A stretch of DNA of 37,684 nucleotides from positions 1 to 37,684 of the IMG/VR virus record IMGVR_UViG_3300043773_001164; one strand, given 5' to 3'. A model generated the notes under the pieces. It saw only the letters and a list, made by a program, of their open reading frames with translations. It ran no database searches and had not been told where the DNA came from. Made by a program: the position numbers and the translations under genes. Of the stretch, positions 1 through 27,659 are shown piece after piece; position 1 is the stretch's first letter, and each line of letters opens with the position of its first letter. This DNA comes from a virus.

Positions 1-1035
1 TATAATCTCAATGATGTAGTTACATTCATTGGCAATTCTTATATTTGTTTAACTAATGGTCTTACTGGCTCTCAACCAGATTCTTTAGTGGGTTGGGATG
101 TATTTGTAGAAAAGGGTTCAACTGGCCCACAGGGTGCAACAGGTCCGCAAGGTGCAACTGGTGCAAATTCAACTGTTCCCGGCCCAACAGGCCCAACAGG
201 TCTGCAAGGTGCAACGGGCTCACAGGGTGCAACGGGTACACAAGGCCCAACAGGCCCACAGGGTGCAACGGGTACACAAGGATCAACAGGCCCACAGGGT
301 GCAACAGGTCCGCAAGGTGCAACGGGCTCACAGGGTGCCACGGGTGCTACAGGAAGAATAGCGTTCACCTATGGTGCAACTGCTCCATCTTCGCCTCAAA
401 TGGGAGATCAATGGCTCAATGAAGTCAATGGAAATCTTTATACTTGGCTGGTCGATGAGGGAGAAGGAACAGGCCAATGGGTCAACTACAACACAAGCAT
501 CACGACAATAGGTGGCGATGGTGCAACAGGAGTCAACAAATTTACCTACAGTTCTATGGAACCAACTGGTTCCACATCTGGAGATGAATGGCTGAATTCT
601 GTTGACGGGAAACTCTACACCTACCTTGTGGATGCAGGCGAAGTGACAGGACAATGGGTAGAACTTTCCGTGATTCCCGATGCCATAAACACATCGTTCC
701 GTGGACCATCAGGAAACACCTTGGGACCATTGACATTCTCTCAGCAGGCTACATCCGACTATACGCTTGTCATTGGTGATTCTGCCAAGACCATAGAGAT
801 GGTATATGGTTCTGCCAACACATTGCAGATTCCCTCATACTCCAATGTTGCATTCCCCACGGGTACTCAGATCATGGTCATGCAGGCTGGGGCAGGGAAC
901 ACATCATTGACAGGGGCTGCCGGTGTTACCCTGAATTCAAGAAATTCAATGTTTTCTCTGAACGGCCAATGGTCGGTCGTGACTCTTGTAAATAGGTCAA
1001 TAGATACTTGGGTCGTACACGGAGACTTGGCCTGA
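1..1035 (+). CDS. Collagen-like tail fibre protein, 5' partial
   Basis: The frame is open to the first base, so the gene starts upstream of the window; an in-frame GTG at 88 is not taken as the start because the sequence before it reads as a small aromatic-rich carbohydrate-binding-type segment ([14 protein letters not shown] ... GWDVFVEKG). Next come about 27 Gly-X-Y triplets (nt 115-357, mostly GATGPQ and GPTGPQ types), two copies of a roughly 40-residue module (FTY...GDQWLNE...LYTWLVD...GQWV, nt 364-480 and 538-663), and a C-terminal beta domain (nt 748-1032) of the type found at phage fibre tips ([10 protein letters not shown]-like and [10 protein letters not shown]-like segments). Collagen-like triplets in phage fibres form trimeric stalks, so this is inferred to be a fibre or adhesion subunit. 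The TGA overlaps the next ATG (TGATG), which suggests coupled translation with the giant fibre. Structural role likely; exact position on the virion unknown. Confidence 0.85.
115..357 (+). repeat. Collagen-like Gly-X-Y coding repeat
   Basis: Short tandem DNA repeats built on ggcccacagggtgcaacg-type units encode Gly-X-Y triplets rich in Thr, Pro, Gln and Ala. The low complexity also creates long open frames on the other strand, which are not genes. Confidence 0.9.
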
Positions 1036-14176: not shown

Positions 14177-14926
14177 ATGGCAGTCGCATACAACAACTCA
14201 CAAATCGTAACTGATGGGCTGTTTCTCTACTACGATGCCAAGAATCCAAGATCGTATCCGGGTGCGGGACTGACTTTCAGCAACATCATGAGTAACCAAT
14301 ATCACGGGGTGAAGCAAGGAGCGTCTGGACCGACATTCCCAATGTACAATTCCGATGGGTTCTTCACATTCAATGGAGGAACATCTTCAAACAATTGGTC
14401 ACGCTTCAGCGCCGTTTCTGTTCCAGGCTTGAGCAGCATTTCTTTTGAAATATGGTGGAGGACCACGGCGCTCAATGCAGACCAAAATCCAATTTCGGCA
14501 GGAGGACCAGACAGCAACCTGTATGGGTGGTTTTCATACTCCACAAGGTTGTTTCCTGCTGAAAATAAATTGTGGTATTCTTTTTGTGATGGGTCAGGAG
14601 GAAATCCGGCATACGCATTTCTTGACTTCGGTAGCAGCCATCCGGGCATAGCAAACGGAAACTGGCATCACACCGTTGGAACATGGGACTTTGCAACACA
14701 GACGGGAAGGGGTTACTATGATTCCGTACTCAAGGGAACCGTGACCGGACCAACAAGCACACCTCTTGGAATATCCGGTCATTCCTTGAGATTAGGAGTA
14801 AGATCAGACATTCAGGGAGGTCACTTCTTTGGTGACATTGCGTTGGTGAGATTATACAATCGGGCGCTTACGCCCGAGGAAGTCAAGCAAAATTACACCG
14901 CAATGCTAGGAAGGTTCGGCATCTGA
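14177..14926 (+). CDS. LamG/concanavalin A-like structural protein 1
   Basis: 249 residues; first of three tandem paralogues. The N-terminal hallmark is IVTDGLFLYYDAKNPRSYPG; it is followed by a jelly-roll-like domain with ISFEIWWRT, NGNWHHTVGTWD and GHSLRLGVRSD strands, and ends FFGDIALVRLYNRALTPEEV then NYTAMLGRFGI. This layout is the LamG/laminin-G-like lectin fold frequent in virion proteins of marine phages, where sugar binding is presumed. Ribosome site GGAG is 8 nt before the ATG. TGATG overlap with the next gene. It diverges from the other two copies in the middle. Confidence 0.82.
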   Translation: MAVAYNNSQIVTDGLFLYYDAKNPRSYPGAGLTFSNIMSNQYHGVKQGASGPTFPMYNSDGFFTFNGGTSSNNWSRFSAVSVPGLSSISFEIWWRTTALNADQNPISAGGPDSNLYGWFSYSTRLFPAENKLWYSFCDGSGGNPAYAFLDFGSSHPGIANGNWHHTVGTWDFATQTGRGYYDSVLKGTVTGPTSTPLGISGHSLRLGVRSDIQGGHFFGDIALVRLYNRALTPEEVKQNYTAMLGRFGI

Positions 14927-15639
14927 TGGCCCTTTCGCACTCACCATCAATCGTGACTGACGGCTTGGTGCTGTGCTTGGACGCAGCGAATAGCCGTTCC
15001 TATCCCGGCAGCGGAACTGCCTGCTATGATCTGAGCAACCGTGTTGCGGCGGGAGTATTGCAAAACGGAACAACTTTCAGTTCCTCCAATCTAGGCAGTT
15101 TTGTTTTTGACGGAACAAATGACAGAATACAGATAGATTCTCCGTTTGGTGACATAGATTGGGCAGGCAGAGCATGGTCGCTGTCTCTTTGGTCAAAATG
15201 GGATGCCTTTGGCGACAGAGGAATGATAAATTTGAATTCGGCCAACAATACACATTATTGTCTCAATATGATATGTGGTTATGGTGGATTTTATTGGTAC
15301 TTCATACAAAATTCCACAACCAATCAAGCACCTTTCTTCACTTCAAGTTCACCTGTGGCAGTAAACCAAATATTCAATTTCACCATGACATACAATGGAA
15401 ACGGAGTATTTCCCGCATTATCAAATGTTTCCAACATAAGATTCTATATCGATGGAAATCTAGTTTCTACAACCGTAGGTGGTGGTGCCACTATTACCAA
15501 TCAAAGCGGAATACAGTTGGGTGGAACAAACTATGCATTTGATGGCAATCTTTATCATGTTTCAATGTACAACCGAGTGCTAGCAGAGCAAGATGTGAGA
15601 CAGAACTTCAACGCCATCAGAGGAAGGTTTGGTATCTAA
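14926..15639 (+). CDS. LamG/concanavalin A-like structural protein 2
   Basis: 237 residues; second tandem copy. It starts SPSIVTDGLVLCLDAANSRS and YPGSGTACYDLSN, contains FVFDGTNDRIQI and WSLSLWSKWDAFGDRG, and ends LYHVSMYNRVLAEQDVRQNF then AIRGRFGI. Same lectin-like fold inferred. The ribosome site (aggaagg) lies inside the last codons of the upstream copy, in the codons for the conserved GRF motif. TAATG overlap with copy 3. Confidence 0.85.
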   Translation: MALSHSPSIVTDGLVLCLDAANSRSYPGSGTACYDLSNRVAAGVLQNGTTFSSSNLGSFVFDGTNDRIQIDSPFGDIDWAGRAWSLSLWSKWDAFGDRGMINLNSANNTHYCLNMICGYGGFYWYFIQNSTTNQAPFFTSSSPVAVNQIFNFTMTYNGNGVFPALSNVSNIRFYIDGNLVSTTVGGGATITNQSGIQLGGTNYAFDGNLYHVSMYNRVLAEQDVRQNFNAIRGRFGI

Positions 15640-16331
15640 TGGCAGTCTTCTCTGGACCGGAAATGGTTGAAGATGGCTTGGTGCTGTGCTTGGACGCAGC
15701 GAATCCTCGTTCATACCCCCGAAGCGGGACAACTTGGTTTGACTTGAGCGGCAGGGGAAATCACGGTACATTGAAAAATGGCCCTACATTCAATGCAAAT
15801 CTTGCTGGAGGCTCAATCGTATTTGATGGTACAAATGACTTTGTGGATGGTAGTTTGTCTTGCAGTAACACGCAGTATTCATTGGATTGGTGGCAGTATG
15901 CCCTGACTGCTTCTAACTACAACAACTACATCAGATTGGGTCCAAGTGATGGTAGTGGATGGGGAAGTTTCTTGTTTCACTACAACGGACCTGTTCCTGC
16001 ATTCATTTCTGTAGGAACGGATACTGCAACAAGAATGCAAGCACCACAATTAAATGGAAGTTATGCAGTTACTTTGAATGCATGGCAGCACTACGCATGG
16101 TCGTTTGACAATGGCACAGCAAGACTTTACCATAATGGTTCTTTATTCCAAACAAAATCTATGAATGTTTCCACCAACAGTACATTTACCGAATATAGCG
16201 TAAGTTGGTCAGGGAGTGGATCACAAATAAATGGTTATGTTTCCAATTTCAAAGTCTATAGTCAGAAAGTGCTTTCTGACATTGAAGTAAGACAAAACTT
16301 CAACGCCCTCAGGGGAAGATTTGACATCTAA
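15639..16331 (+). CDS. LamG/concanavalin A-like structural protein 3
   Basis: 230 residues; third tandem copy. It has the most canonical N-terminus of the family: MVEDGLVLCLDAANPRSYPR, WFDLSGRGNHGTLKNGPTFN and IVFDGTNDFVDG. Later strands include LNAWQHYAWSFDNGTARLYH and VSNFKVYSQKVLSDIEVRQN, ending ALRGRFDI. A beta-jelly-roll lectin role on the virion is inferred. It uses a ribosome site in the GRF codons of copy 2. Confidence 0.87.
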   Translation: MAVFSGPEMVEDGLVLCLDAANPRSYPRSGTTWFDLSGRGNHGTLKNGPTFNANLAGGSIVFDGTNDFVDGSLSCSNTQYSLDWWQYALTASNYNNYIRLGPSDGSGWGSFLFHYNGPVPAFISVGTDTATRMQAPQLNGSYAVTLNAWQHYAWSFDNGTARLYHNGSLFQTKSMNVSTNSTFTEYSVSWSGSGSQINGYVSNFKVYSQKVLSDIEVRQNFNALRGRFDI

Positions 16332-16625: not shown

Positions 16626-17417
16626 ATGGCTGACTCTGACAAGAACATCATCATCCGCCCCAATCGCGGTGCAACGGGATCGACCGGGCAGCCGCAGATA
16701 CGGTTTGTCGGTCAGAATGCCGATCCGATCACGCTGCGAGTCCTTGACATCACGGGAAGCAGCGCCGGGGCTATCTCGTTCGAGGGTTCTGCCGGACAGT
16801 TGTTCTCCATTACCAACTCCCTGACATCGGGAAGTATCTTCAGCGTCAACGACATTTCTGGATTACCGAGCATCGATGTCAATGCCAACGGGACCATCCT
16901 TTTCGCCGGATTCACGGGAAATGTCGGAATCGGTGCAACGGCAGGCATATCGGGTTCGGCACAGAGATTGACCGTGGTTGGCGGAATACATGTGACGGGA
17001 GGGGCAAGCAACATCGGCGGAACCCTGAACATGAACACGAACCTGATTCGTGACCTTGAGATGCGTGACTATTACGAGACATTGACAACGCCGACATTCT
17101 CGGGAGGTGTACTGACATGTGACCTCAATTCATCTCAGGTCTTCACTCATACCTTGCACTCTTCCATCAACCGCATCGTCCTGAGCAATGTCCCAACCAA
17201 GACAAATACGGTCATGGGATTCACCCTTGTTGTGAAGCAAGGCACAACGGGCGGAAACACGGCTGCATTCTCGGGCATATCGGGTGCCACGACATTGTTC
17301 GCAAACAACGAGGTTCCCGTCATGTCAACTGGTGCAAACAAGACTGACATAGTTTCATATGTCACCTATGACAACGGTTCAAACTGGTTTGGATTTTTGG
17401 GAGGACAGAATTTCTGA
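16626..17417 (+). CDS. Fibre-type structural protein, 263 aa
   Basis: The N-terminus (MADSDKNIIIRPNRGATGST) is a T4-like fibre-type start. Residues about 50-105 (SFEGSAGQLFSITNSL, GSIFSVNDISGLPSIDVNA, LFAGFTGNVGIG) form a module also present in the giant fibre at about nt 6767-6925. The C-terminal half (DYYETLTTPTFSGGVLTCDL, FTHTLHSSINRIVLSN, WFGFLGGQNF) resembles a small beta domain often found at fibre C-termini. Virion role inferred. No ribosome site upstream; a CTAAATA element sits 7 nt before the ATG. Confidence 0.78.
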   Translation: MADSDKNIIIRPNRGATGSTGQPQIRFVGQNADPITLRVLDITGSSAGAISFEGSAGQLFSITNSLTSGSIFSVNDISGLPSIDVNANGTILFAGFTGNVGIGATAGISGSAQRLTVVGGIHVTGGASNIGGTLNMNTNLIRDLEMRDYYETLTTPTFSGGVLTCDLNSSQVFTHTLHSSINRIVLSNVPTKTNTVMGFTLVVKQGTTGGNTAAFSGISGATTLFANNEVPVMSTGANKTDIVSYVTYDNGSNWFGFLGGQNF

Positions 17418-17418
17418 T

Positions 17419-19767
17419 ATGTTCGGTGGCATGAATTCCAACATCATTCGCAGAAAACCCGAAACAGGAAACCTTTGGGTATGGGGCAGAGGCTACAACT
17501 ATGGGTTCCTTGGACTTGGAAATCGTGTGAATCTGTCTTCGCCTGTTGCATTGGGTAGAAGAAACGACTGGTATTCTGTTTCTTCTTCGGCAACTCATGC
17601 CCTTGCATTGACCGTAGGAGGAAGATTGTGGGCATGGGGAAACAGCAACAATGGTGAAATAGGAGACAACACCAACCAACCAAGATCATCGCCTGTACAG
17701 ATAGGCACCTTGACCGACTGGACATATGCCCATGCAGGAAGAACCACTTCCTTTGCCATGAGAAGCAATGGAACATTGTGGGCATGGGGACAAAATGGTT
17801 CGGGCCAACTTGGCATCAACAGAACTACAAACACCAACAGTCCGATACAGGTCACATCGGGAGGATTCACGGGTTTTTGGAAAAGCGTAAATGTTGATGA
17901 GGCCACGGCAGCGGTTCGTGGAGATGGGACTTTGTGGACTTGTGGCCTGAACAACTATGGACAACTTGGATTAGGTGTCTTTGGCACCAATATGTCGGTA
18001 CTCATGCAAGTGACGGGAGGAAGCGGAGGCACGGGTGGCTGGAGCAAGGTATCCTCGGGAAGAACACACATATTGGCCCTGAAGGAAGATGGGACATTAT
18101 GGGCAGCAGGAAACAACAGCGCAGGACAACTTGGACTCGGCAACACGGTTTCTAGGTCTGTCTTCTTTCAGATAACTGGAGGGGCAGGAGCAACCAATGA
18201 CTGGATGCTTCCCGTGGCAAACAAGGGATTCGGAAGAAAATCATTCGCAATCAAGAGAAACGGCACATTGTGGGGATGGGGATACAATAATTTCTTCTCT
18301 CTTGGCTTGGGCGATTCGTCAAATCGTTCTGTGCCGGTTCAGATAGGAACATTCACCGACTGGGTTGCCATGATGCCAAGCACGAATGGAGGAACCTTTG
18401 GGTTGCGAAGAAATGGAACGCTATGGATATGGGGGAACAACAATTATGGCATGGCCGGACAGAGCCTCAGCACATATGGATGGTCGCCCGTGCAGATGGG
18501 CACGGGAAACGACTGGTCTTCTCTGCTTCAGTCGGGAAGCAACTCTTACAATTTCCTGTTTGCATTGAAGACCAATGGAACCATGTGGGCATGGGGCAGA
18601 GGACAGGGAAATTACCGTCAGTTGGGATTGGGAAACACGACCAATTTCTCTGCCCCACAGCAGATAACCGGCGGAGGAGGCGCAACCAACGATTGGAAGA
18701 TGGTCGGTCCAAGAAGGCAGGGAGGACATGCACTCAGAAACAACGGAACTCTCTGGGGTTGGGGAGAAGCATTTGACTTTCAGAATGGCGACGGAACAAG
18801 CACCACAAGATCAGTACCAACATTGGTGACAGGCGGAGCCGGGGCAACCAATGATTGGGCGACATTTTCTACTGGTCGTTCATTTTGCATGGCCATCAAG
18901 ACCAATGGAACGCTTTGGGGGTGGGGAAGAAACAATTACGGTAACCTTGGATTGGGAGACACCACCACCCGATCCTTCGCCACACAGGTTGGCACCGGCA
19001 ACAATTGGTCCGCTGTCAAGTGCGGATTTGCCGAAGTACTTGCCACCAAGACCGATGGAACCTTGTGGGGCTGGGGAAGAAATGCAAACGGACAACTTGG
19101 ATTGCGTGACACGGTTGCAAGATCATCTCCCGTACAGATCACGGGAGCAGGGGAAACCGGCTGGACAAGGGGACTCACTTCCCTCGGCGTTGGAGGAAGG
19201 CATTGCCTTGTGATACGAGAAAATGGAACCCTGTGGGGGTTGGGTGGATATGACGGAAGACTTCTTGGAAATGGCGTATTCGGGGGACGGTCAGTCCCCA
19301 TGCAAATCACGGGTGCAACTCCCGGTGGCGGCACAAATGACTGGCTTCAGGTAAATTGTACACAAAATCAGACATTTGCATTGAAGACGGACGGCACTCT
19401 GTGGTGCTGTGGATTTAACGGGTATTCCGTTCTTGGCCTAGGCCGTGCAGGAGAACTTCGTGGGGGTGATGGCTTCGGTCTTGTTGGCAGATTCACTCTT
19501 CAGGGAACAACGGCTGACAAGTGGAAGGATGTTTCTGGAAATGGAGTCAGCATAGCAGGAATACGCCAAGACGGAACCCTTTGGGGATGGGGGGGCAGGA
19601 ATTACGGCGTTGGTTGCGTTCCTTACATGGTTCTTATCTCTTCTCCGATGTTGGTATCTTCCTTCAATGGGTGGACAACCAACATTGGAGCAACGGGAGT
19701 CAGAAACATTGGAACCGGGATCGGTTCGGCAATGGTCATTCGCAGAAGGAAGACAGATCCGAATTGA
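17419..19767 (+). CDS. RCC1-like beta-propeller repeat protein, 782 aa
   Basis: ATG 17419 is chosen: it follows the upstream stop by one base and has GGGAGG about 13 nt before it; an in-frame ATG at 17359 would overlap the previous gene by 59 nt. The protein is built of RCC1/ATS1-type repeats of about 50 residues. Fourteen copies of a G(T/N/R)LW(A/G)WG-type strand are visible, most followed by NNxGQLGLG, then SPVQI and W loops (several repeats vary, such as GTLWTCG and GTLWCCG). RCC1 repeats form seven-bladed propellers, so two stacked propellers are plausible. The ends (MFGGMNSNIIRRKPETGNLW; GIGSAMVIRRRKTDPN) look like complete boundaries. Position at the end of the fibre block suggests a virion adhesin or fibre head; alternatives such as an effector cannot be excluded. 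Confidence 0.88.
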   Translation: MFGGMNSNIIRRKPETGNLWVWGRGYNYGFLGLGNRVNLSSPVALGRRNDWYSVSSSATHALALTVGGRLWAWGNSNNGEIGDNTNQPRSSPVQIGTLTDWTYAHAGRTTSFAMRSNGTLWAWGQNGSGQLGINRTTNTNSPIQVTSGGFTGFWKSVNVDEATAAVRGDGTLWTCGLNNYGQLGLGVFGTNMSVLMQVTGGSGGTGGWSKVSSGRTHILALKEDGTLWAAGNNSAGQLGLGNTVSRSVFFQITGGAGATNDWMLPVANKGFGRKSFAIKRNGTLWGWGYNNFFSLGLGDSSNRSVPVQIGTFTDWVAMMPSTNGGTFGLRRNGTLWIWGNNNYGMAGQSLSTYGWSPVQMGTGNDWSSLLQSGSNSYNFLFALKTNGTMWAWGRGQGNYRQLGLGNTTNFSAPQQITGGGGATNDWKMVGPRRQGGHALRNNGTLWGWGEAFDFQNGDGTSTTRSVPTLVTGGAGATNDWATFSTGRSFCMAIKTNGTLWGWGRNNYGNLGLGDTTTRSFATQVGTGNNWSAVKCGFAEVLATKTDGTLWGWGRNANGQLGLRDTVARSSPVQITGAGETGWTRGLTSLGVGGRHCLVIRENGTLWGLGGYDGRLLGNGVFGGRSVPMQITGATPGGGTNDWLQVNCTQNQTFALKTDGTLWCCGFNGYSVLGLGRAGELRGGDGFGLVGRFTLQGTTADKWKDVSGNGVSIAGIRQDGTLWGWGGRNYGVGCVPYMVLISSPMLVSSFNGWTTNIGATGVRNIGTGIGSAMVIRRRKTDPN

Positions 19768-19810: not shown

Positions 19811-19817
19811 CTAAATA
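19811..19817 (+). promoter_or_regulatory. Late-promoter-like CTAAATA element
   Basis: CTAAATA 17 nt before the ATG at 19835, in the only noncoding gap (67 nt) between the fibre block and the sugar cassette. It would place the cassette under late control together with the virion genes. Confidence 0.5.
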
Positions 19818-19834
19818 AGGATGGAGTCTACATC

Positions 19835-21679
19835 ATGCAGCATACCATTCATTTTCTTTCCGGCCTGCCTCGCAGCGGGTCAACCGTCCTCTCCTCCCTC
19901 CTCAATCAGCATCCACAGGTTCATTCCACTTCAACTAGTGGTCTGATCGACATCATGGGTGCCGTCTGCGTGGCATGGGAGCAATCGCCTTCAACCGTAG
20001 CACAGTCTGCCGACAAGGAAGAGGCATATCGCCTTCTCCGCTCCGTTGCCGACAGCAAGTATGAAACCGTGTCCAAGCCGGTCATCATCGACAAGAGCCG
20101 TGGATGGGCAAATCCGCAGATCATGGAAACGCTGACACAGGTTCTCGGAAAGCCGCCAAAGATCATTGCCACGGTCAGGAACCCCGCCGATTGCGCTGCA
20201 TCGTTTGTCCGTGTTGCCAAACCAAAGGATGTTCCGAATTTCCTGCGCTCTTCTCAACTCATAGCGCATCTGAAGTCCTCGTATGCAATTCTCAACCAAG
20301 GCTACGAGAAGCATCCAGAGAATTTCTGCTTCGTTGATTACGATGATCTCATCCAGTCTCCGCAGGCGCAGATGGATCGCATCATCAAGTTCCTTGGTCT
20401 TGAGCCACACAAATTCGATTTCCACAACATCGACACCAAGGTAGTTGCAGAGAAGGATGATGAGGCATGGGGGATTCCGAATCTTCACACGATAGCCCCT
20501 CGCTTGGGCAAGCAGCATAATCAGGATGCAAGGACGGTTCTTGGCTTCAAATACGATGACTTTGATCCGCCCAAGTTCTGGAAGGGGGAAAATTTTGAAG
20601 CACCACGAAAGAAGAAGAAGATTGACATCTCGGTGGAACTTGCCATGCGTGGGGAATTCGACAAGTCCTACAAGATATTGTGTGAGGCACAGAAAGAGAA
20701 TCCCGAGTGCAACAAAATCGCATTCAACATGGGTTGGTATGCCTTGCGTCAGGATCGCTTGCAGGAAGGCATGGAAAACCTTGCCCGTGGACGGTTTGAG
20801 AATTGCTTTGGCAATCCCAAGCCACCCGTGCCGACTCCTTTGTGGGATGGAAAAAGCATGGGAACAATTTTGTACAATCTTGAGGCTGGCCTAGGTGACC
20901 AGATTCATGCCCTGAAGTACATTCAAGACATCAATCGTCGTGGTTGTGATGTTATCGTTGCTTGTTCTCCCGAACTCTGCCCGTTGGTGAAAGTTTGCAC
21001 GGGAGTCAAGATGATCATAGACCATGCAGCGGCAGGAATGGTCTATCATGACTTCTGGGTTCCATCCATGTCCGTGCTGTTGCCCCTTGGTTATGAATAC
21101 AAGGACATCAGCGGAAAGCCATACATCCCACGGACACGGCATCCTATCAACAAGCGTCCTGTGATAGGTGTGCGTTGGCAGGGAAACCCCAAGTTCGAAC
21201 ATGAACAGAACCGAAGATTCCCCCTCAAGCCTTTCTTTGATGCTCTTCGCAACATAGATGCGGATTTCATTTGCTTGCAGCGTGACGAAGGGGAGGAAGA
21301 CTGTCCAGACTTCATCAAAAAAGTTGCTCTCAATGATTGGGAACAGACACGGGATGCAATCTCAGGATGTGACTTAGTGATTTCCTCATGTACAAGCGTT
21401 GCCCATCTTGCGGGTGCAATGGGAGTTGAAACCTGGGTCGTGGTTCCTGTTCTCAATTATTACATTTGGAGCGTACCGGGGAACAAGACACCATTCTATG
21501 ATTCGGTACGGCTATTTCGTCAGCAGAAATTTGGCTGTTGGAAGGCTCCGACACAGGAAATTGCCGAGGCATTGGCTGCTAAATATCCGAGCATCAAGCC
21601 GCCATCGAAGGCTGCACCAAGAACAACAAAGGCAACAAGGAGAAATCACAATGCAGAAATATGTCAGAGTAGAGAATGA
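19835..21679 (+). CDS. Sulfotransferase - GT9-like glycosyltransferase fusion
   Basis: 614 residues. Residues 1-250 are a PAPS-dependent sulfotransferase: the 5'-phosphosulfate loop FLSGLPRSGSTVLSSLLNQHP-type segment starts at residue 7; the 3'-phosphate region IIATVRNPADCAASFVR is at 110-126; FVDYDDLIQSPQAQMDRIIK follows at 166. Residues about 262-325 look like a TPR-type helical pair. Residues 343-585 are a GT-B glycosyltransferase of the GT9/TPR-linked type: GLGDQIHALKYI (352), RPVIGVRWQGNPKF (441), FICLQRDEG (478), and CDLVISSCTSVAHLAGAMG (512), the usual nucleotide-sugar-binding region. GT9 members commonly use ADP-heptose, which the genes downstream may supply. Likely acts in host cytoplasm on a glycan or virion protein. 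A lysine/arginine-rich tail overlaps the next gene by 29 nt. Confidence 0.83.
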   Translation: MQHTIHFLSGLPRSGSTVLSSLLNQHPQVHSTSTSGLIDIMGAVCVAWEQSPSTVAQSADKEEAYRLLRSVADSKYETVSKPVIIDKSRGWANPQIMETLTQVLGKPPKIIATVRNPADCAASFVRVAKPKDVPNFLRSSQLIAHLKSSYAILNQGYEKHPENFCFVDYDDLIQSPQAQMDRIIKFLGLEPHKFDFHNIDTKVVAEKDDEAWGIPNLHTIAPRLGKQHNQDARTVLGFKYDDFDPPKFWKGENFEAPRKKKKIDISVELAMRGEFDKSYKILCEAQKENPECNKIAFNMGWYALRQDRLQEGMENLARGRFENCFGNPKPPVPTPLWDGKSMGTILYNLEAGLGDQIHALKYIQDINRRGCDVIVACSPELCPLVKVCTGVKMIIDHAAAGMVYHDFWVPSMSVLLPLGYEYKDISGKPYIPRTRHPINKRPVIGVRWQGNPKFEHEQNRRFPLKPFFDALRNIDADFICLQRDEGEEDCPDFIKKVALNDWEQTRDAISGCDLVISSCTSVAHLAGAMGVETWVVVPVLNYYIWSVPGNKTPFYDSVRLFRQQKFGCWKAPTQEIAEALAAKYPSIKPPSKAAPRTTKATRRNHNAEICQSRE

Positions 21680-22076
21680 CCAAGTGGTTGAATGCCTTGA
21701 CTATCTTCCCGGTACACCGGGAGATTGGCGGGAGGCAATCGACATCACACCGACTCTTATACCTTTAAAGCAAATTTGTGGGCCACATCATTTCGATATC
21801 AGCAAGAATCCCGTAGAAATCGTGTGGAGCGTGATTGACTTGAATGAGCAGGAACGGAAGGAAACATTGATGAATATTCTGGTTAGTCCCTTGACCTTCA
21901 AAATGCAGCAAGAAATGCAAAAAGAATTCAACAATTCTTTAGAGGGAATTGGAATGGATGTTGATTTTGTTCGTTCGTTGACTGAACAAGTTCGGGCAAT
22001 CAAGACAGAGATTGCTGCCCTGACCACTCACGAAGAAATTGATGCATACATCGCCGCCAAGGGAATCACTCCCTGA
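21651..22076 (+). CDS. Hypothetical protein, 141 aa
   Basis: ATG 21651 chosen for its ribosome site (aaggaga at 21637); the frame is open further upstream but that part is a shadow of the fusion gene. The start is MQKYVRVENDQVVECLDYLP, a pattern (M..YV.VENN.VV......P..WR) common in small phage proteins linked to fibres or glycans. The second half is helical and charged (QQEMQKEFNNSLEGIGMDVD, LTEQVRAIKTEIAALTTHEE). I do not recognise a function. It sits between the sulfotransferase fusion and a glycosyltransferase. Confidence 0.72.
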   Translation: MQKYVRVENDQVVECLDYLPGTPGDWREAIDITPTLIPLKQICGPHHFDISKNPVEIVWSVIDLNEQERKETLMNILVSPLTFKMQQEMQKEFNNSLEGIGMDVDFVRSLTEQVRAIKTEIAALTTHEEIDAYIAAKGITP

Positions 22077-22106
22077 ACTGACTTTCACAATTAGTGGGGA
22101 CAAGTC

Positions 22107-22919
22107 GTGAGAATTGCTTTTACCATCATACATAATGGTCTTCATCACCTGAAGCACAACGATCAAGCGGAGAGAATCCTTTCGATGTGCGACAGGTGGG
22201 TGGTGGTGGAAGGAGCCGCCCGTTCCAAGGGCAGCACGACTTGGTGCAAGGAGTTTCCCGAAAGTCTCCATGAAAATGGAGCCAGCGTGGACGGGACATT
22301 GGATTACCTGAACGATCTTTCGCAGAAGAACGACAGGCTGATCCTTGTCCCGTCCACCGGCTTCTGGGAATCCAAGGATCATCAGGTCAATCGGGCAATT
22401 GTGGAAGTCCGCAAGATCACGGATCGCTGTTTCCTGTGGGAGTTCGATGCCGACGAGCAATGGGATGCTGAGTCGATGGATGCAGCGGAAAAAGAACTTG
22501 TTGAAAAGAACGCCAAGGCAGGATGTTTTGCAGCAGATTGCTACATCGGCAGGAACCTGATGGCAATCGGAGATTGGGGCGAGGCAAGGACATACGGATA
22601 CACCCGCCTGTGGAATTGGGAAGGCGAGAACTTCATCTGCCATGAGCCTCCCGTGCTTGAGGGGCTGATGGGGATCGATCCAACCATGCTGTCGCCTAGA
22701 TTCAAGCACTACAACTATCACTTTGAGAAGGATGTTGCATTCAAGGATGCATGGTATGGTGGTCATGAGGGAATCCTTGAAAGATGGAAGTTGATCAATT
22801 CCCTTGACAAGCGATTCTTCCCAATGCACATCTCAAACCTCATCACGGGGCCGTGGGGCAAGTCCAACAGCGCAATAATATGGAACAATAGAAATGAAGA
22901 ACATCCTCGTCATTGGTGA
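22107..22919 (+). CDS. GT-A-like glycosyltransferase, 270 aa
   Basis: GTG start at 22107 with ggggaca upstream. Features: an N-terminal Rossmann-like strand (MRIAFTIIHNGLHHL), CDRWVVVEGAARSKGST, NDRLILVPSTGFWESKDHQV, a likely metal-binding DxD in FLWEFDADEQW (D114, D116), then YGYTRLWNWEGENFICHEPP and HYNYHFEKD towards the C-terminus. This resembles GT2/GT17-type transferases that act on complex glycans. Donor and acceptor cannot be read from sequence. It overlaps the HldA-like gene by 26 nt and so belongs to the same transcript. Confidence 0.7.
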   Translation: MRIAFTIIHNGLHHLKHNDQAERILSMCDRWVVVEGAARSKGSTTWCKEFPESLHENGASVDGTLDYLNDLSQKNDRLILVPSTGFWESKDHQVNRAIVEVRKITDRCFLWEFDADEQWDAESMDAAEKELVEKNAKAGCFAADCYIGRNLMAIGDWGEARTYGYTRLWNWEGENFICHEPPVLEGLMGIDPTMLSPRFKHYNYHFEKDVAFKDAWYGGHEGILERWKLINSLDKRFFPMHISNLITGPWGKSNSAIIWNNRNEEHPRHW

Positions 22920-23634
22920 CAGTTGCCGAGATATCTTTGTGTACTGCGATGCACATAGGCTATGCCCCGATGTTCCTGTTCCTGTGTTGAATGTCTCCTA
23001 TCAAACAGAGAACAAGGGAATGGCTTTGAATGTTCAGGAGAATATCAAGGCTCTTGGACAGCCTTGCGACATCTTCACAAATTCAAATTGGCACGATGTC
23101 ACCAAGACTCGCTATGTCCACGCAACAAGCAACCATGCTTTCTTCCGTGTTGACTCTGGCATCAAGCCAGAAAGAATGATGAATTGTCCTTCTCTTCTAT
23201 ACGGGATGATCGTGATCTCCGATTACAACAAGGGATTTCTCAAGGAAGAAGACATTGCAGCCATCTGTTCCATGCACGACAATGTATTCGTTGACACCAA
23301 GAAGCGACTTGGCCCATGGCTCAACCATGCCCGATACATCAAAATCAATGCATCCGAGTACATGGCATCCAAAGAATTCATCACGCCGGAACTGAAGGAC
23401 AAGATCGTCGTTACCCTCGGCAAGGATGGCTGCGAACACAGGGATCATATCTATCCCGTGCAGCAATCCGATGTCCGTGATGTCTCGGGAGCAGGAGACA
23501 CCTTCCTCGCGGGACTTTGCGTGAAGTACTTGCAGACAAGCGACATAGAGGAATCCATAATGTTTGCAAATCGTTGTGCGGCTTCTGTGGTGAAGCATCG
23601 TGGAGTCACGGTGGTTGATCCGAATGAAATCTGA
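22894..23634 (+). CDS. hldA: HldA-like heptose-7-phosphate kinase (PfkB family)
   Basis: 246 residues, ribokinase/PfkB fold. It matches the kinase half of HldE: ILVIGDSCRDIFVYCDAHRL then CPDVPVPVL (compare SPEAPVPV), ISDYNKGFL, VFVDTKKRLG, YIKINASEY, and the PfkB signature DVSGAGDTF (196-204; D202 the catalytic base). The known reaction is ATP-dependent phosphorylation of D-glycero-D-manno-heptose 7-phosphate at C1. It is shorter than the about 310-residue bacterial domain, and the usual GGAAN motif reads NKGMALN, so substrate preference may differ. It overlaps the adenylyltransferase-like gene by 11 nt, as though a fused HldE had been split. Confidence 0.8.
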   Translation: MKNILVIGDSCRDIFVYCDAHRLCPDVPVPVLNVSYQTENKGMALNVQENIKALGQPCDIFTNSNWHDVTKTRYVHATSNHAFFRVDSGIKPERMMNCPSLLYGMIVISDYNKGFLKEEDIAAICSMHDNVFVDTKKRLGPWLNHARYIKINASEYMASKEFITPELKDKIVVTLGKDGCEHRDHIYPVQQSDVRDVSGAGDTFLAGLCVKYLQTSDIEESIMFANRCAASVVKHRGVTVVDPNEI

Positions 23635-24049
23635 AATCAACAAGATTGTACTCACCAACGGCGTGTTTGATGTCATTCACAGAAAGCACATCGAACTCCT
23701 GTCATTCTGTAAGGAGCAAGGTGACTATCTGATCGTGGCGATAGATTCGGATCGCAGGGTGAGAGAAACCAAGGGAAGCACTCGCCCAATCAACAGCGAG
23801 ATGGACAGGAAGTTTGTTCTGAATTCCTTGAAATTTGTTGACGAAGTTCTTGTGTTTGACACGATCCAAGACCTTCGGCAATTGCACAAAGGGATTCGCC
23901 CAAACATCTATGTAAAGGGCGGTGACTGGCAGGAATCGTTTCTGCGTGAAACCGATGGTATACTTCCTGCCACCAAGGTCATCCTCTTTCCATACGAGAA
24001 TTCCTATTCCTCCACGAAGACCATAGAAAGAATGAGGCAATCGCAATGA
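23624..24049 (+). CDS. hldC: HldC-like sugar-phosphate nucleotidyltransferase
   Basis: 141 residues from ATG 23624 (a start at 23600 would overlap the kinase more). It is the RfaE domain II/cytidylyltransferase fold: TNGVFDVIHRKHIELL (11-26), LIVAIDSDRRVRETKG (36-51), RPIN (54), VDEVLVFDT (72), IYVKGGDW (95-102) and YSSTKTIERM near the end. In bacteria this domain joins heptose-1-phosphate to AMP, giving ADP-heptose. The nucleotide-binding motif, normally HxGH, reads H19-R-K-H22; both histidines are kept but the glycine is replaced. ATGA overlap with hldD. Confidence 0.8.
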   Translation: MKSEINKIVLTNGVFDVIHRKHIELLSFCKEQGDYLIVAIDSDRRVRETKGSTRPINSEMDRKFVLNSLKFVDEVLVFDTIQDLRQLHKGIRPNIYVKGGDWQESFLRETDGILPATKVILFPYENSYSSTKTIERMRQSQ

Positions 24050-24957
24050 TCGTTGTTACCGGCGCATCTGGCTTCATAGGAAGCAGGATGGTTGCATATC
24101 TGAACACATTGGGCATCACGGACATAGCCGTAGTTGATGACTTTGAGGTCAATCACAGGCTCGGGTATGCAAGCAAGGCAAACTACGCCAACTTGCAGTC
24201 TTGTGAGTTTGGGACCGTGCATCCAATCATCATGAGTAGGGATTCGATACTTCCTGTTGGTGACATTCAGGCAGTATTTCACTTTGGTGCCATCAGCAAC
24301 ACTCTCGAAAAGGACACCTCAAGGCTCTACAACTACAATACCCGCTACACCTACATCCTTGGCGAGGCTTGCAAGGAGAGGGGCATTCCCCTGCTGTTCA
24401 GTTCAACCGCAGCAGTCTATGGCAACGGAAACGGTCCTCTGAACGACTATGCCAAGTCCAAGAGGATTTCCGAAAAAGATATATCTGCTCATGCCGTATG
24501 CTTCAGGCTTTTCAATGTGTATGGTCCCAACGAATCACACAAGGGCAGGATGGCATCGGTAATCCATCATTGGCACAACCAACTGACCAAGAACGGAATT
24601 CTTGAGATGTTTGAAGGTTCCCATGCGTACAAGCGTGACTTCATTTGGGTCAACGATGTGTGCCGAGTCTTTCATTCGGCATCGATCAACTACCAGCCGG
24701 GAATCTATGACTTGGGAAGCGGCAGGAGCGAAGCCCTTGACAAGGTTGCTAGAGTGGTGATTGCTGCTCATGGTGGCGGTGAAATCAAGGAGATACCGAT
24801 GCCAAGCGACTTGGCGCTTCAGTATCAGACAAACACGCAGTCAGATATTGTTGCCATAAGAAACAATGGTTGGTGCGTAGACATGATGGGAATTGAGATG
24901 GGAATCCCCCTGTACATCGAAAAGTTGAGGAACGCAAAATGGCAAGTCGCAAGTTGA
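24046..24957 (+). CDS. hldD: HldD-like ADP-heptose 6-epimerase
   Basis: 303 residues, SDR-type Rossmann enzyme. NAD(P) loop TGASGFIGS (5-13); FHFGAISNT (79), LLFSSTAAVYGNG (116) and the catalytic YxxxK at Y135-K139. The stretch FRLFNVYGPNESHKGRMASV (153-172), FEGSHAYKRDFIWVNDV (189), LGSGRSEAL (223) and IPMPSDLALQYQTNTQSDI (250) follow bacterial HldD/RfaD almost step by step (FNVYGPREGHKGSMASV, KRDFVYVGDV, FTQADL). Known role: converts ADP-D-glycero- to ADP-L-glycero-D-manno-heptose for LPS core. It overlaps the cupin gene by 19 nt. Confidence 0.85.
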   Translation: MIVVTGASGFIGSRMVAYLNTLGITDIAVVDDFEVNHRLGYASKANYANLQSCEFGTVHPIIMSRDSILPVGDIQAVFHFGAISNTLEKDTSRLYNYNTRYTYILGEACKERGIPLLFSSTAAVYGNGNGPLNDYAKSKRISEKDISAHAVCFRLFNVYGPNESHKGRMASVIHHWHNQLTKNGILEMFEGSHAYKRDFIWVNDVCRVFHSASINYQPGIYDLGSGRSEALDKVARVVIAAHGGGEIKEIPMPSDLALQYQTNTQSDIVAIRNNGWCVDMMGIEMGIPLYIEKLRNAKWQVAS

Positions 24958-25307
24958 AGAGCGAGATGGTGGAAAAAGGTTGGGGCAACGAGATCATCTT
25001 TGCCAACAACGGAAGATACTGCGGAAAGTTGCTGAACCTGAACGCAGGAAAGAAGTTCAGTATGCACTTTCACCTGATGAAGGACGAGACATGGTATGTC
25101 GCCAAGGGAAGCCTGATACTTCGTTGGATCGACACCTCGGATGGCAAGACGCATTGGGAGAAACTTGATGTGGGAGATGTAGTGAGGAACTTCTCGGGGT
25201 TTCCCCATCAACTTGAGGCAATAGAAGACTCAACGATATTTGAAGTTTCCACCCAACACTTCGACCACGACAGTTACCGTGTACTGCCCGGAGACAGCCA
25301 GAAGTGA
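24939..25307 (+). CDS. Cupin-domain sugar-phosphate isomerase-like protein
   Basis: 122 residues, one cupin. KGWGNEIIFANNGRYCGKLL, then SMHFHLMKDETWYVAKG with the metal ligands H43, H45, E50 and the later H90 (GFPHQLEA). It resembles the cupin half of type II mannose-6-phosphate isomerase/guanylyltransferases and free-standing sugar-pathway cupins. In this operon it may isomerise or bind a sugar phosphate, but the reaction cannot be read from the motif. GTGA overlap with the next gene. Confidence 0.75.
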   Translation: MASRKLKSEMVEKGWGNEIIFANNGRYCGKLLNLNAGKKFSMHFHLMKDETWYVAKGSLILRWIDTSDGKTHWEKLDVGDVVRNFSGFPHQLEAIEDSTIFEVSTQHFDHDSYRVLPGDSQK

Positions 25308-25624
25308 GATACGCCTTCGACATCGACAATACATTGGTTTCCACGCAGGGTAGCGATTACCAAAATTCAACCCCGATACAACATCGAATTGATTCGGTGA
25401 ATCGTCTTTACGAGGAAGGCCATACCATAATTCTTTTCACGGCAAGGGGTTCTGCATCAGGCAATGACTATACAGAATTCACCAAGCAGCAGATGGAGAA
25501 ATTCGGAGTCAAGTATCATGTTCTCATCACGGGCAAGCCGGATGTAGATGTCTTCATAGATGACAAGGCAATGTCGGTTCGCGAGTGGGATCGAAAGCAA
25601 GGACGAATTGTTCTTCGCTTTTGA
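25304..25624 (+). CDS. Small HAD-superfamily phosphatase
   Basis: 106 residues, GTG start in a GTGA overlap. It has all four HAD motifs: DIDNT (D6 nucleophile, D8), FTARG (T46), K78 and FIDDK (D86, D87). It has no cap domain, the architecture of small sugar phosphatases often annotated as capsule-biosynthesis phosphatases. Since ADP-heptose synthesis needs a 1,7-bisphosphate phosphatase (GmhB, also HAD), this is the best candidate for that step; GmhB's usual FLDRDGT motif is absent, so this is inference. Confidence 0.78.
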   Translation: MRYAFDIDNTLVSTQGSDYQNSTPIQHRIDSVNRLYEEGHTIILFTARGSASGNDYTEFTKQQMEKFGVKYHVLITGKPDVDVFIDDKAMSVREWDRKQGRIVLRF

Positions 25625-25736: not shown

Positions 25737-27659
25737 ATGAGTGAACACGGACTTCCCACGCCTTACCAGCATTTCATCCATCTTTCAAGATATTCAAGAT
25801 GGCTTGAATCGGAGAACCGCAGAGAGACATGGGAAGAAACGGTGGCTCGTTACTTCGACTTCTTTGACAAGCACCTTGGCAGCAAGATCACCAAGGAGCA
25901 TCGCAAGGAACTTGAGACTGCCGTTCTGAACCTTGAGGTGATGCCTTCCATGCGGGCATTGATGACCGCCGGTCCTGCTCTTGAGCGTTGCAATGTAGCG
26001 GGATACAACTGTGCATTCGTGGCAGTCAATCGTGTCCGTGCTTTCGATGAAATCCTCTATGTGCTGATGTGTGGCACGGGAGTGGGCTTCAGCGTGGAGA
26101 ATCGCTTCGTCTACAAGTTGCCGACCGTTGCCGAGGAATTCTTCCCAAGCGACACCGTGATCGTGGTTGAGGATTCCAAGATCGGATGGGCAAAGGCATT
26201 CAAGGAACTCATCAGCCTGCTGATTGTAGGACAACTTCCCAAGTGGGATGTCTCCAAGGTCCGTTCCAAGGGTGCAAGACTCAAGACATTTGGTGGCCGT
26301 GCAAGCGGTCCCGATCCGCTTGTCGAATTGTTCAAGTTCACATCCGACACCTTCCGTAAGGCAGCAGGCCGCAAGTTGACAACAATTGAATGCCATGACA
26401 TCGTTTGCAAGATCGCGGAGATCGTGGTGGTTGGTGGCGTTCGTCGCTCTGCATTGATCAGCCTGTCTGACCTCAACGATGAGCGGATGCGTAATGCCAA
26501 GGTTGGTCAATGGTGGGTGATCGATCCACAGAGGGCATTGGCAAACAACTCTGCCGTCTACCAAGAGAAGCCCGAGATCGGCACCTTCATGGACGAGTGG
26601 GTTTCTCTGTACAAGTCAAGGAGCGGTGAGCGTGGAATTTTCAATCGCGATGCAGCCAAGAAGCAAGTTTCGAAGTTGGGTGATCGTCGTGATCCAAACT
26701 TTGACTTTGGAACAAACCCATGCTCGGAGATCATCCTGCGTGACCGTGAATTCTGCAACTTGTCCGAAGTGGTGATTCGCAGCACCGACAGCGTGAATGA
26801 CCTGACTCGCAAGGTTCGTCTTGCTGCCATCCTTGGCACATGGCAGGCATCCCTGACCAACTTCCGCTACATCTCAAGCGAGTGGAAGAAGAACTGCGAG
26901 GAGGAGGCTTTGCTTGGGGTTTCGCTCACGGGAATCCTTGACAATTCCCTGCTGCGAAACTACAACAATCTTGATGGACTTCTTGAAACAATGAAGCAAG
27001 TCGCAGTCAAGACAAACGCCGAATGGGCAAAGAAGATCGGCATCAACCCTGCCGCAGCCATCACTTGCGTCAAGCCTTCGGGAACTGTGTCTCAGTTGGT
27101 TGACGCTGCTTCAGGAATCCATGCCCGTCACAGCGAATACTACATTCGCACAGTCCGGGCAGACCGCAAGGATCCGCTGTGTCAGTTCATGATCGACCAA
27201 GGCTTCCCCGCAGAGCCTTGCGTGATGCGTCCTGACCATACGATGGTTTTCTCTTTCCCAATGAAGTCGCCAAAGGGTTCACCTACACGAAACGACATCA
27301 CGGCCATTGAACATCTTGAATTGTGGAAGATGTACCAAGACCATTGGTGTGAACATAAGCCTTCCATCACGATCACGGTTCGTGAGCATGAATGGCTTGA
27401 TGTTGGTGCATGGGTCTACAATCACATTGACAGCATCTCGGGAATTTCGTTCCTACCTCACTCCGATCACAGTTATCAGCAGGCACCATACCAAGACTGC
27501 ACCAAGGAGCAGTACGAGGCCATGGTTGCCAAGATGCCGAAGAATGTCGATTGGAGCCTGCTGTCAAATTACGAGAAGGAAGACAATACCGCAGGGACGC
27601 AGACATTCGCATGTTCTGCGGGTTCGTGTGAGATTGTTGACTTAACACAAGCGAGTTGA
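25737..27659 (+). CDS. nrdJ: Adenosylcobalamin-dependent (class II) ribonucleotide reductase
   Basis: 640 residues from ATG 25737, with ribosome site aaggagaa; the upstream in-frame extension is not used. Reduces ribonucleotides to deoxyribonucleotides for phage DNA synthesis using coenzyme B12. It matches the monomeric class II type (RTPR-like): MPSMRALMTAGPALERCN (69), GYNCAFVAVN with C92, MCGTGVGFSVE (111), the active-site loop NPCSEI (C329, E331), C340 as the likely redox partner, VKPSGTVSQLVDAASGIHAR in the C-terminal half, and the tail thiol pair CSAGSC (C626, C631). No NrdB or activase is needed, and none is nearby. The single chain fits T4-like phages whose hosts have or import B12. 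A terminator-shaped hairpin lies 55 nt past the stop. Confidence 0.92.
   Translation: MSEHGLPTPYQHFIHLSRYSRWLESENRRETWEETVARYFDFFDKHLGSKITKEHRKELETAVLNLEVMPSMRALMTAGPALERCNVAGYNCAFVAVNRVRAFDEILYVLMCGTGVGFSVENRFVYKLPTVAEEFFPSDTVIVVEDSKIGWAKAFKELISLLIVGQLPKWDVSKVRSKGARLKTFGGRASGPDPLVELFKFTSDTFRKAAGRKLTTIECHDIVCKIAEIVVVGGVRRSALISLSDLNDERMRNAKVGQWWVIDPQRALANNSAVYQEKPEIGTFMDEWVSLYKSRSGERGIFNRDAAKKQVSKLGDRRDPNFDFGTNPCSEIILRDREFCNLSEVVIRSTDSVNDLTRKVRLAAILGTWQASLTNFRYISSEWKKNCEEEALLGVSLTGILDNSLLRNYNNLDGLLETMKQVAVKTNAEWAKKIGINPAAAITCVKPSGTVSQLVDAASGIHARHSEYYIRTVRADRKDPLCQFMIDQGFPAEPCVMRPDHTMVFSFPMKSPKGSPTRNDITAIEHLELWKMYQDHWCEHKPSITITVREHEWLDVGAWVYNHIDSISGISFLPHSDHSYQQAPYQDCTKEQYEAMVAKMPKNVDWSLLSNYEKEDNTAGTQTFACSAGSCEIVDLTQAS

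Follow-up and report, generated by a model that had tools for sequence, protein, structure and literature searches.

A probable portable ADP-heptose gene module in a T4-like virus, with a cupin as candidate substitute for GmhA

The bacterial route to ADP-heptose (GmhA, HldA or HldE, GmhB, HldC or HldE, and HldD) starts with GmhA, a sedoheptulose 7-phosphate (S7P) isomerase of the SIS fold, and shares its isomerase and phosphatase steps with the route to GDP-heptose. Sugar genes of the same families are found in cyanophages: T4-GC 304, 305, 307 and 308 co-occur in three phages, and the passages of Sullivan et al. 2010 (PMC3037559) drawn on here leave their functionality as a question. Heptose-related genes for lipopolysaccharide (LPS) are mentioned in excerpts from the SynMITS9220M01 paper (PMC7378029), and rfaE appears among the LPS genes in excerpts from the Pelagimyophage authors (PMC7029224). 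Here we describe a window of DNA (the whole stretch analysed, the 37,684-base T4-like virus record IMGVR_UViG_3300043773_001164) in which eight open reading frames (ORFs), g1 to g8, lie on one strand at 19835-25624. This cassette consists of two units, g1-g3 and g4-g8 (22894-25624), the second of which is our main subject.

We judge it likely, with good confidence, that g4-g8 form a portable ADP-heptose pathway in which the cupin g7 takes the part of GmhA and the HAD protein g8 that of GmhB. In such a pathway g7 would convert S7P to D-glycero-D-manno-heptose 7-phosphate, g4 (HldA) would phosphorylate heptose 7-phosphate at C1, g8 would remove the C7 phosphate, g5 (HldC) would couple heptose 1-phosphate to AMP, and g6 (HldD) would epimerise ADP-heptose at C6; every catalytic step, the metal and the acceptor are what we infer. 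With the first step supplied by the cupin, the phage would not need the GmhA of its host. The cupin is the only member of the module without an assigned role, and most likely it is an S7P isomerase unrelated to GmhA, as suggested by its co-occurrence with both heptose kinase types in phages, the mutual exclusion of cupin and GmhA in cellular genomes, an operon swap, gene fusions and its kinship with ManC-linked cupins. A preliminary description of the cassette had listed the cupin without a role; the absence of GmhA and the likely substitution by the cupin were missed there.

The g4-g8 module in phages and viral contigs

Gene g4 (22894..23634, plus strand) encodes a short HldA-like D-glycero-D-manno-heptose 7-phosphate kinase of the PfkB type with 246 amino acids (aa). 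It matches TIGR02198 (6e-34) and phrog_8133 (1.4e-85), and its best relative in the PDB is HldA (4e84, 3e-18), followed by ribokinase (6e-9). Gene g5 (23624..24049, plus strand; 141 aa) is like HldC, the heptose 1-phosphate adenylyltransferase (TIGR02199, 2.4e-38), and has a putative cytidylyltransferase (5x9q, 3.5e-20) as its best PDB relative. Gene g6 (24046..24957, plus strand; 303 aa) resembles HldD, the ADP-glyceromanno-heptose 6-epimerase (TIGR02197, 4e-65), and is closest to E. coli HldD (1eq2, 1.5e-50); it keeps the residues aligned to Tyr140 and Lys178 of the latter, which we take to be catalytic, and Ser116 aligns to Thr (numbering counted from the alignment). The HldA-, HldC- and HldD-like enzymes named in the preliminary description are thus borne out, and g7 and g8 belong with them in a recurring phage module.

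The last gene, g8 (25304..25624, plus strand; 106 aa), encodes a HAD phosphatase for which we propose the GmhB role. It belongs to the family of T4-GC 306 (phrog_1238, 7e-26), and its matches in NCBIfam, to the EcbF/BcbF and HAD-IIIA models, stay below cut-off (TIGR01689, 6.6e-7). Phage records label this HAD 'phosphoheptose isomerase': two S-SM2 proteins of that name, 103 and 109 aa long, are HADs with matches to g8. Among 80 viral cupin loci (see below), 29 have a g8-type HAD, 13 a GmhB-type HAD, none both and 38 neither (some of these loci being incomplete), a separation with p 0.0015 before any correction for near-copies. This complementarity suits g8 as the counterpart of GmhB. HAD-HldC fusion proteins are also encoded in phages (L094:1273-2040 and L023:13520-14242).

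The genes of the module recur as a set while their order changes, for instance as HldA-HldC-HldD-cupin-HAD in the window and in L018, as HldA-HldD-HldC-HAD-cupin in L005, and as HldA-HldD-cupin-[HAD-HldC fusion] in L023. That the same genes keep together in varying order speaks for a single pathway, and g4-g8 are probably a portable ADP-heptose module that occurs, shuffled, in many phages; its presence is sporadic among close relatives. Our viral scan of IMG/VR retained 80 relatives out of at least 571 by patterns that require the YCGK or the WG.E motif, and the neighbour counts describe this sample, in which many loci are near-copies and many records are fragments. HldA was found in 69 of the 80 cupin loci, HldC in 68, HldD in 63 and at least one of the three in 76. 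Once the rows were thinned at a similarity ratio of 0.85, with the window counted apart, HldA or HldC lies within 5 kb of the cupin in 49 of 57 viral rows and HddA in two; a model of HddA built from three sequences had no match in the 80 loci.

It is conceivable that the module makes another activated sugar, an aldoheptose or a hexose, if its HldA, HldC and HldD relatives have drifted in specificity. The three proteins all fall below the curated cut-offs (g4, 117.6 of 345 bits for TIGR02198; g5, 131.2 of 181.5 bits for TIGR02199; g6, 220 of 274.6 bits for TIGR02197), g4 falls some 70 aa short of the length of the HldA model, and the HxGH motif of HldC reads HRKH in the window, with both histidines retained in 9/9 aligned sequences. 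These features speak against a firm heptose assignment, and the exact specificity of g4-g6 is therefore one that we infer. A different product nevertheless seems unlikely, given that, among solved structures, HldA and HldD come out far ahead of the next matches, that 27 of the 80 viral loci encode HldA-HldC fusions arranged as in HldE, and that archaeal operons with the same cupin contain full-length HldA, HldC and HldD, with a HAD part in L073 and L191.

In named phages the association is close. The cupin occurs in 35 phage records (redundant, and representing about 17 phages), and 31 of these are among the 34 records with an HldA-like kinase. HldA, HldC and the cupin are found together in S-SM2, P-SSM2, P-TIM68, S-CAM1, S-CAM3, S-SSM7, S-T4, Sf-CH5, Sf-CH8 and Sf-FS3, and among the matches listed (40 of 114 records) HldD is seen in S-SM2, P-SSM2, P-TIM68, S-CAM1, S-CAM3, S-SSM7 and Sf-FS3. 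Three HldA records are without the cupin, two of them from a 735-kb uncultured phage and one a 6.4-kb human faecal contig. The four cupin records without HldA, from Bellamy (two records, one examined), SynMITS9220M01 and MH319741, have an HddA-type kinase nearby. In Bellamy the order is HddA (NF049969, 7e-83, 279 of 600 bits), cupin, HddC (NF049965, 4e-17, 62 of 300 bits), with both kinase and transferase scores under the curated cut-offs and no SIS_2 match in the record. The cupin therefore accompanies the routes to both ADP- and GDP-heptose. Cyanophages Bellamy and SynMITS9220M01 (L042 and L043) both have GDP-heptose genes of the HddA/HddC type, which score under the curated thresholds.

GmhA itself was not detected beside the viral cupins: a hidden Markov model (HMM) of GmhA had no match in the 80 loci. 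The model was trained on five GmhA-like ORFs from cell genomes, the SynMITS9220M01 protein and one spurious overlapping ORF of L186, and elsewhere it detected the SynMITS9220M01 protein and the SIS parts of three long ORFs. A SIS_2 match was seen in none of seven viral records and then in one of 18 (some the same), the 177-kb sister contig of the window being without one, and TIGR00441 was absent from all of six viral records, this sister contig among them. For some hosts the first step would matter in particular. LPS of marine Synechococcus WH8102 is described as free of heptose in the part of the source drawn on here (PMC4515613), yet HldA, HldC and the cupin are present in Sf-CH5, Sf-CH8 and Sf-FS3, phages recorded with WH8102 as host. 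Moreover, in the family that contains Prochlorococcus (that of G015), 60 of the 81 genomes sampled have no TIGR00441 match at E ≤ 0.001, and 21 have some match. Together with the heptose-free LPS this implies that such phages would need a first step of their own.

The cassette proteins are encoded at 100% identity on two more viral contigs (89,087 and 177,364 bases), which argues against an assembly artefact. Low dN/dS values (0.04-0.31) were obtained in the eight of 18 sequence pairs with unsaturated dS, none of which includes g8, and for the measurable g4-g7 pairs they are 0.06-0.31, pointing to purifying selection in these pairs. This is difficult to reconcile with the sugar genes serving as stuffer DNA for headful packaging, one of the options for cyanophages in the passages of Sullivan et al. 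2010 (PMC3037559). Patchy occurrence in closely related phages and large, variable sugar clusters in phage genomes are in line with that option, but besides the selection estimates the site residues are invariant over 147 cupins and the same gene set recurs in shuffled orders, so that stuffer DNA appears extremely improbable.

The g7 cupin and GmhA in cellular genomes

Gene g7 (24939..25307, plus strand; 122 aa; phrog_7851) encodes the proposed GmhA substitute and belongs to the family of T4-GC 307, which phage records label 'nucleotidyltransferase' or 'cysteine dioxygenase'. Its candidate metal ligands H43, H45, E50 and H90 have a conservation of 1.00 across 147 cupins. With 22.3 bits it stays below the Pfam Cupin_2 cut-off of 27.2, which its relative L009 passes (31.8), and its predicted structure (pLDDT 97.1) is a cupin beta-barrel with Z 13.6-15.3 to solved cupins. 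The HxH, E and H residues and the barrel make g7 a member of the cupin superfamily; it has no match to the SIS domain or TIGR00441, and so, although it may work like GmhA, it stands outside the GmhA family. Structural matches include archaeal phosphomannose isomerases (PDB 7zvy and 7zvm; Z 14.4-14.7) and D-lyxose isomerases (Z 13.7-13.9). However, unrelated cupins equal these isomerases (CapF 15.3, PAC13 14.7, KdgF 14.4, and seed globulins), which counts against reading an activity from the fold; the predicted structure would permit an aldose-ketose isomerase and does not prove one.

Cupins with the motif YAGK or YVGK have ManC as a neighbour in nine of 12 cases, and those with YCGK, the type of g7, in none of 147; the identity of ManC (mannose-1-phosphate guanylyltransferase) rests on PF00483 and PF22640 for L225. 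The ManC-linked sister cupins carry Q-H-E-H, the ligand set of phosphomannose isomerases, where the heptose type has H43-H45-E50-H90, and most other site residues are common to both. The conversion of S7P to D-glycero-D-manno-heptose 7-phosphate is that of fructose 6-phosphate to mannose 6-phosphate plus one carbon. Gene g7 itself lacks the marks of a phosphomannose isomerase: it scores 17.3 bits against PF01050 (cut-off 23.6; the archaeal relative L073 reaches 23.0), has HxH instead of QxH, and has no ManC neighbour. The heptose-type alignment set was picked by YCG[KR], so its contrast at position 28 is built in, and the H43/Q43 contrast is independent of it. In the cupin tree, the eight ManC-linked rows that remained after thinning form a branch (86/95) within a starred set of ten rows (99/99); the tree has few columns and an unsettled bootstrap and does not separate phage from cell cupins. 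The neighbour and tree sets skipped repeat loci, rows below 85 aa and cupin matches above 1e-18.

The same cupin is found outside viruses. A scan of a species-genome collection gave 41 cupin loci, several of which show the gene set typical of the phages and could be binned viral contigs. Other loci look cellular, namely cupin-HldD-HldA-[HAD-HldC fusion] in a record titled Nanoarchaeota (L073), cupin-HldD-HldA-HAD in L069, cupin-HldD-HldA-HldC in L074 and L083, and cupin-HldA...HldC-HldD in a record titled Parcubacteria (L070). A GT9 gene (PF01075, 1.5e-31; L070:8924-9979) adjoins the cupin of L070, and another (1.4e-39; L083:7972-9105) lies 0.9 kb upstream of the cupin in the Woesearchaeota-titled L083, with an opposite-strand ORF between. 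TIGR00441 matched at 0.001 in 14 of 27 cell genomes with the cupin, reaching GmhA grade in three (G016, G019 and G022); the remaining matches are weak and partial and mostly lie in ORFs of about 600 aa, which we read as GlmS-like.

We counted cupin and GmhA in two phyla, those of the L073 and L070 genomes, which are known from the record titles; the counts disregard genome completeness. The archaeal sample comprises 148 genomes, 33 of which have HldA above 200 bits. Eight of the 41 genomes with HldA at E ≤ 1e-20 fell below 200 bits and were left out, and 20 of the 107 HldA-negative genomes were tested (thresholds: cupin E ≤ 1e-30, GmhA > 180 bits). The 33 HldA genomes split into ten with the cupin, 17 with GmhA, none with both and six with neither. 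The 20 HldA-negative genomes have no cupin (G099 has a weak generic one of 43 bits), and four have GmhA above 100 bits. In seven of the ten archaeal cases the cupin is fused to HldA or within about 1 kb of it. Similarly, 14 of 192 Patescibacteria-type genomes have HldA at E ≤ 1e-40, four of these with the cupin next to HldA or joined to it in one protein, ten with GmhA above 180 bits and none with both. Pooled over the 47 HldA-positive genomes, the cupin occurs in 14, strong GmhA in 27, both in none and neither in six, and the chance of zero overlap, ignoring kinship, is 8.7e-5 (archaeal), 1.0e-3 (Patescibacteria-type) and 1.1e-7 (pooled). Mapping the cupin label onto the HldA tree requires eight changes, six of them forced by starred branches, and in six independent pairs GmhA changes the opposite way in 4.8 on average and the same way in none.

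The cupin also takes the positions of GmhA in operons and fusions. The first gene is swapped between L193 (G055), with a cupin-HldD-HldA-HldC fusion, and L192 (G152), with a GmhA-HldD-HldA-HldC fusion, and the HldA proteins of the two are sisters on the tree (99/90). L191 (G066) belongs to this clade too and carries the cupin; HAD-HldC is the final gene there. HldA is fused to a C-terminal cupin in L206, L207 and L208, to an N-terminal cupin in L217 and L219, and to GmhA in L214; in G109 and G311 matches to HldA and GmhA lie within one open frame.

Cupins often modify nucleotide sugars, and the g7 type could likewise act later in the route, as an epimerase or tailoring enzyme on a heptose phosphate or nucleotide-heptose, with host GmhA performing the isomerase step. 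SynMITS9220M01 and the cell genome G022, which hold both a GmhA-like protein and the cupin, would agree with such a role. It seems improbable to us all the same, considering the 14 HldA-positive cell genomes that have the cupin and no GmhA above 180 bits, the place of GmhA in operon and kinase fusion taken by the cupin, and the cupin's presence with HddA/HddC as well.

Several observations weigh against the cupin as a substitute for GmhA. The exclusion of GmhA is not absolute, and the host of the phage may have GmhA. SynMITS9220M01 has, besides its cupin, a diverged GmhA-like SIS protein (TIGR00441, 2.8e-12), the gene of which adjoins a second HddA-like kinase. Among the 27 cell genomes with the cupin, the three GmhA-grade matches include one that lies about 15 kb from the cupin on the same contig. 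Six archaeal HldA genomes have neither gene, the cupin is distant from HldA or on another contig in three of ten (G078, G123 and G148), and G130 and G078 hold weaker GmhA matches (117 and 87 bits) away from HldA; once these two are counted as having both, the Fisher p becomes 0.007. The kinship-corrected sign test on independent pairs gives a weak median p of 0.0625, with zero pairs contrary. In the Patescibacteria-type sample, nine of 13 cupin genomes are without HldA at E ≤ 1e-40; six of these nine cupins adjoin ManC, and two of the genomes (G272 and G365) have strong GmhA. Finally, neither HldA/C nor HddA nor ManC was seen in the neighbourhood of 24 of 63 cellular cupins; in some of these cases the flanks span only 1.5 kb.

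The g1-g3 unit and the surrounding window

The eight genes of the cassette were confirmed as co-directional and mostly overlapping, as first described, with overlaps at six of the seven junctions (the exception being g2/g3). Gene g1 (19835..21679, plus strand) combines an N-terminal sulfotransferase domain (about aa 7-190) with a C-terminal GT-B-like half. The former exceeds the Pfam gathering scores (PF13469, 3.4e-20, 73.7 versus 27 bits; PF00685, 7e-15, 55.5 versus 22 bits), and its nearest PDB relatives are protein-tyrosine sulfotransferases (7e-7). The C-terminal half has no Pfam match at E ≤ 0.1, PF01075 (GT9) included, and aa 433-536 align weakly with a three-sequence GT9 alignment in hhalign (64.7% probability, E 6e-5, 100 columns). 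Of the sulfotransferase joined to a GT9-type glycosyltransferase in the preliminary description, the first part is therefore well founded and the second is a weak match.

Gene g2 (21651..22076, plus strand) encodes a 141-aa protein that follows g1 in most relatives and has no family in the Pfam, PHROGs and NCBIfam scans. The product of g3 (22107..22919, plus strand; 270 aa) is a GT-A-like glycosyltransferase by its predicted fold. By sequence, Pfam, PHROGs, NCBIfam and tblastn against phages gave no match and PDB profiles none of significance; its AlphaFold model is middling (mean pLDDT 67.3), with SunS and heparosan synthase as top Foldseek matches (2e-6 to 4e-6). Relatives of g3 in L006, L018, L019, L028 and L039 have about 190 extra C-terminal aa; in L023 this part is a separate ORF (10948-11568) with a weak Methyltransf_24 match, and the window g3 is without it and overlaps g4 instead. 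The 600-nt gap between g3 and g4 in sibling phages was considered as a place for gmhA and rejected, as the gap is the C-terminal extension of g3; for L023 and L024 the same candidate was rejected in view of the separate ORF with the weak methyltransferase match.

Upstream of g1 lies a gene for an RCC1-repeat protein of 802 aa, a probable virion protein (17359..19767, plus strand; phrog_4219, 1.1e-64). It precedes g1 in 24/24 loci that reach upstream, the other two of 26 starting inside g1. HldA or HldC occurs in only nine of the 26 g1 loci, several of which are incomplete or near-copies. In L020-L022 and L027 g1-g2-g3 are followed directly by nrdJ, and in the window g4-g8 sit between g3 and nrdJ. 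From this analysis of neighbours we therefore regard g1-g3 as a unit of its own for transfer and sulfation, linked to the upstream virion gene with RCC1 repeats, and the constancy of the RCC1-g1 pair suggests that g1 may modify the RCC1 protein.

These data bear on the idea, put forward in the preliminary description, that the phage makes its own nucleotide heptose, which the GT9 half of g1 transfers and its sulfotransferase half sulfates. The first part is probably right for g4-g8; the transfer by g1 is unproven. Adjacent, co-directional genes, the weak GT9-like profile match and the joint presence of g1 and RCC1 relatives in 14 of the 80 viral cupin loci are compatible with it, but 17 of the 26 g1 loci (some incomplete) have no HldA/HldC, and together with the missing Pfam GT9 match this makes it unlikely that g1 uses the heptose of the module. 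The sugar may decorate either LPS or the virion.

A CTAAATA motif (19811..19817, plus strand), which we take to be of the T4-like late-promoter type, starts 24 nt before g1. The window has eight copies against 1.35 expected, a number reached in none of 100 shuffles, yet TAAATA lies within 120 nt of g1 in only five of 14 loci, the window counted, and is poorly conserved among relatives. The step from this motif to late expression and virion decoration, as originally made, is accordingly weak.

Tail-fibre-like genes and a class II ribonucleotide reductase flank the cassette, and a gp32-type single-stranded DNA-binding protein, a helicase loader and a late-promoter regulator are further T4-like genes of the window. 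The reductase gene (nrdJ, 25737-27659; adenosylcobalamin-dependent), here in a T4-like genome, has its closest phage relatives (about 64% identity) in phages of Roseobacter-type hosts and Puniceispirillum. A single ORF of 2817 aa at 1008-9461 has a tail-fibre-like C-terminus, three consecutive genes at 14177-16331, each with matches to phrog_24074 and phrog_8510 (virion structural), resemble tandem paralogues, and an 837-aa minus-strand ORF with tape-measure-like matches (34519-37032) is oriented opposite to the rest of the window.

Comparison with described systems

It seems fairly likely that the YCGK cupins are an unrecognised family of S7P isomerases, related to phosphomannose isomerase cupins, that stands in for GmhA in making ADP- and GDP-heptose. 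The family would do so in hundreds of viral contigs, DPANN-type archaea and Patescibacteria-type genomes, and would enable phages whose hosts are free of heptose, marine Synechococcus for example, to make the sugar themselves for their virions or for remodelling of the host surface. If the cupin is the isomerase, failure to recognise it is the sole reason why heptose pathways seem incomplete in phages, archaea and Patescibacteria. Our proposal would name the missing enzyme and correct the misleading labels of the HAD and the cupin. What is new here is the proposed substitution of GmhA by a cupin; a literature search, with subscription papers and preprints outside its coverage, gave nothing on a cupin as S7P isomerase or GmhA replacement in the texts it reached, and novelty is not proven.

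The cyanophage genes T4-GC 304, 305, 307 and 308 are of the same families as those of the module (HldC, HldA, cupin and HldD). The difference lies in the pathway assigned here to these four sugar genes, for which the passages of Sullivan et al. 2010 (PMC3037559) give none.

Cupin phosphomannose isomerases (7zvy, 7zvm; PF01050) resemble g7 in fold, and L073 nearly reaches their Pfam cut-off; their reaction, from fructose 6-phosphate to mannose 6-phosphate, is the one-carbon-shorter homologue of the step proposed for g7. They differ in having QxH..E..H where g7 has HxH..E..H, and ManC in place of HldA/C/D as neighbours. With GmhA the cupin has no fold in common and no SIS match, and it shares the operon place and the fusion partner. 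Compared with the bacterial ADP-heptose pathway as a whole, the module has a cupin where GmhA was not found, a HAD of another subfamily and a kinase of only 246 aa; it agrees with that pathway in its homologues of the kinase, the adenylyltransferase and the epimerase, in its HAD phosphatase, and in the HldA-HldC fusions of the related viral loci.

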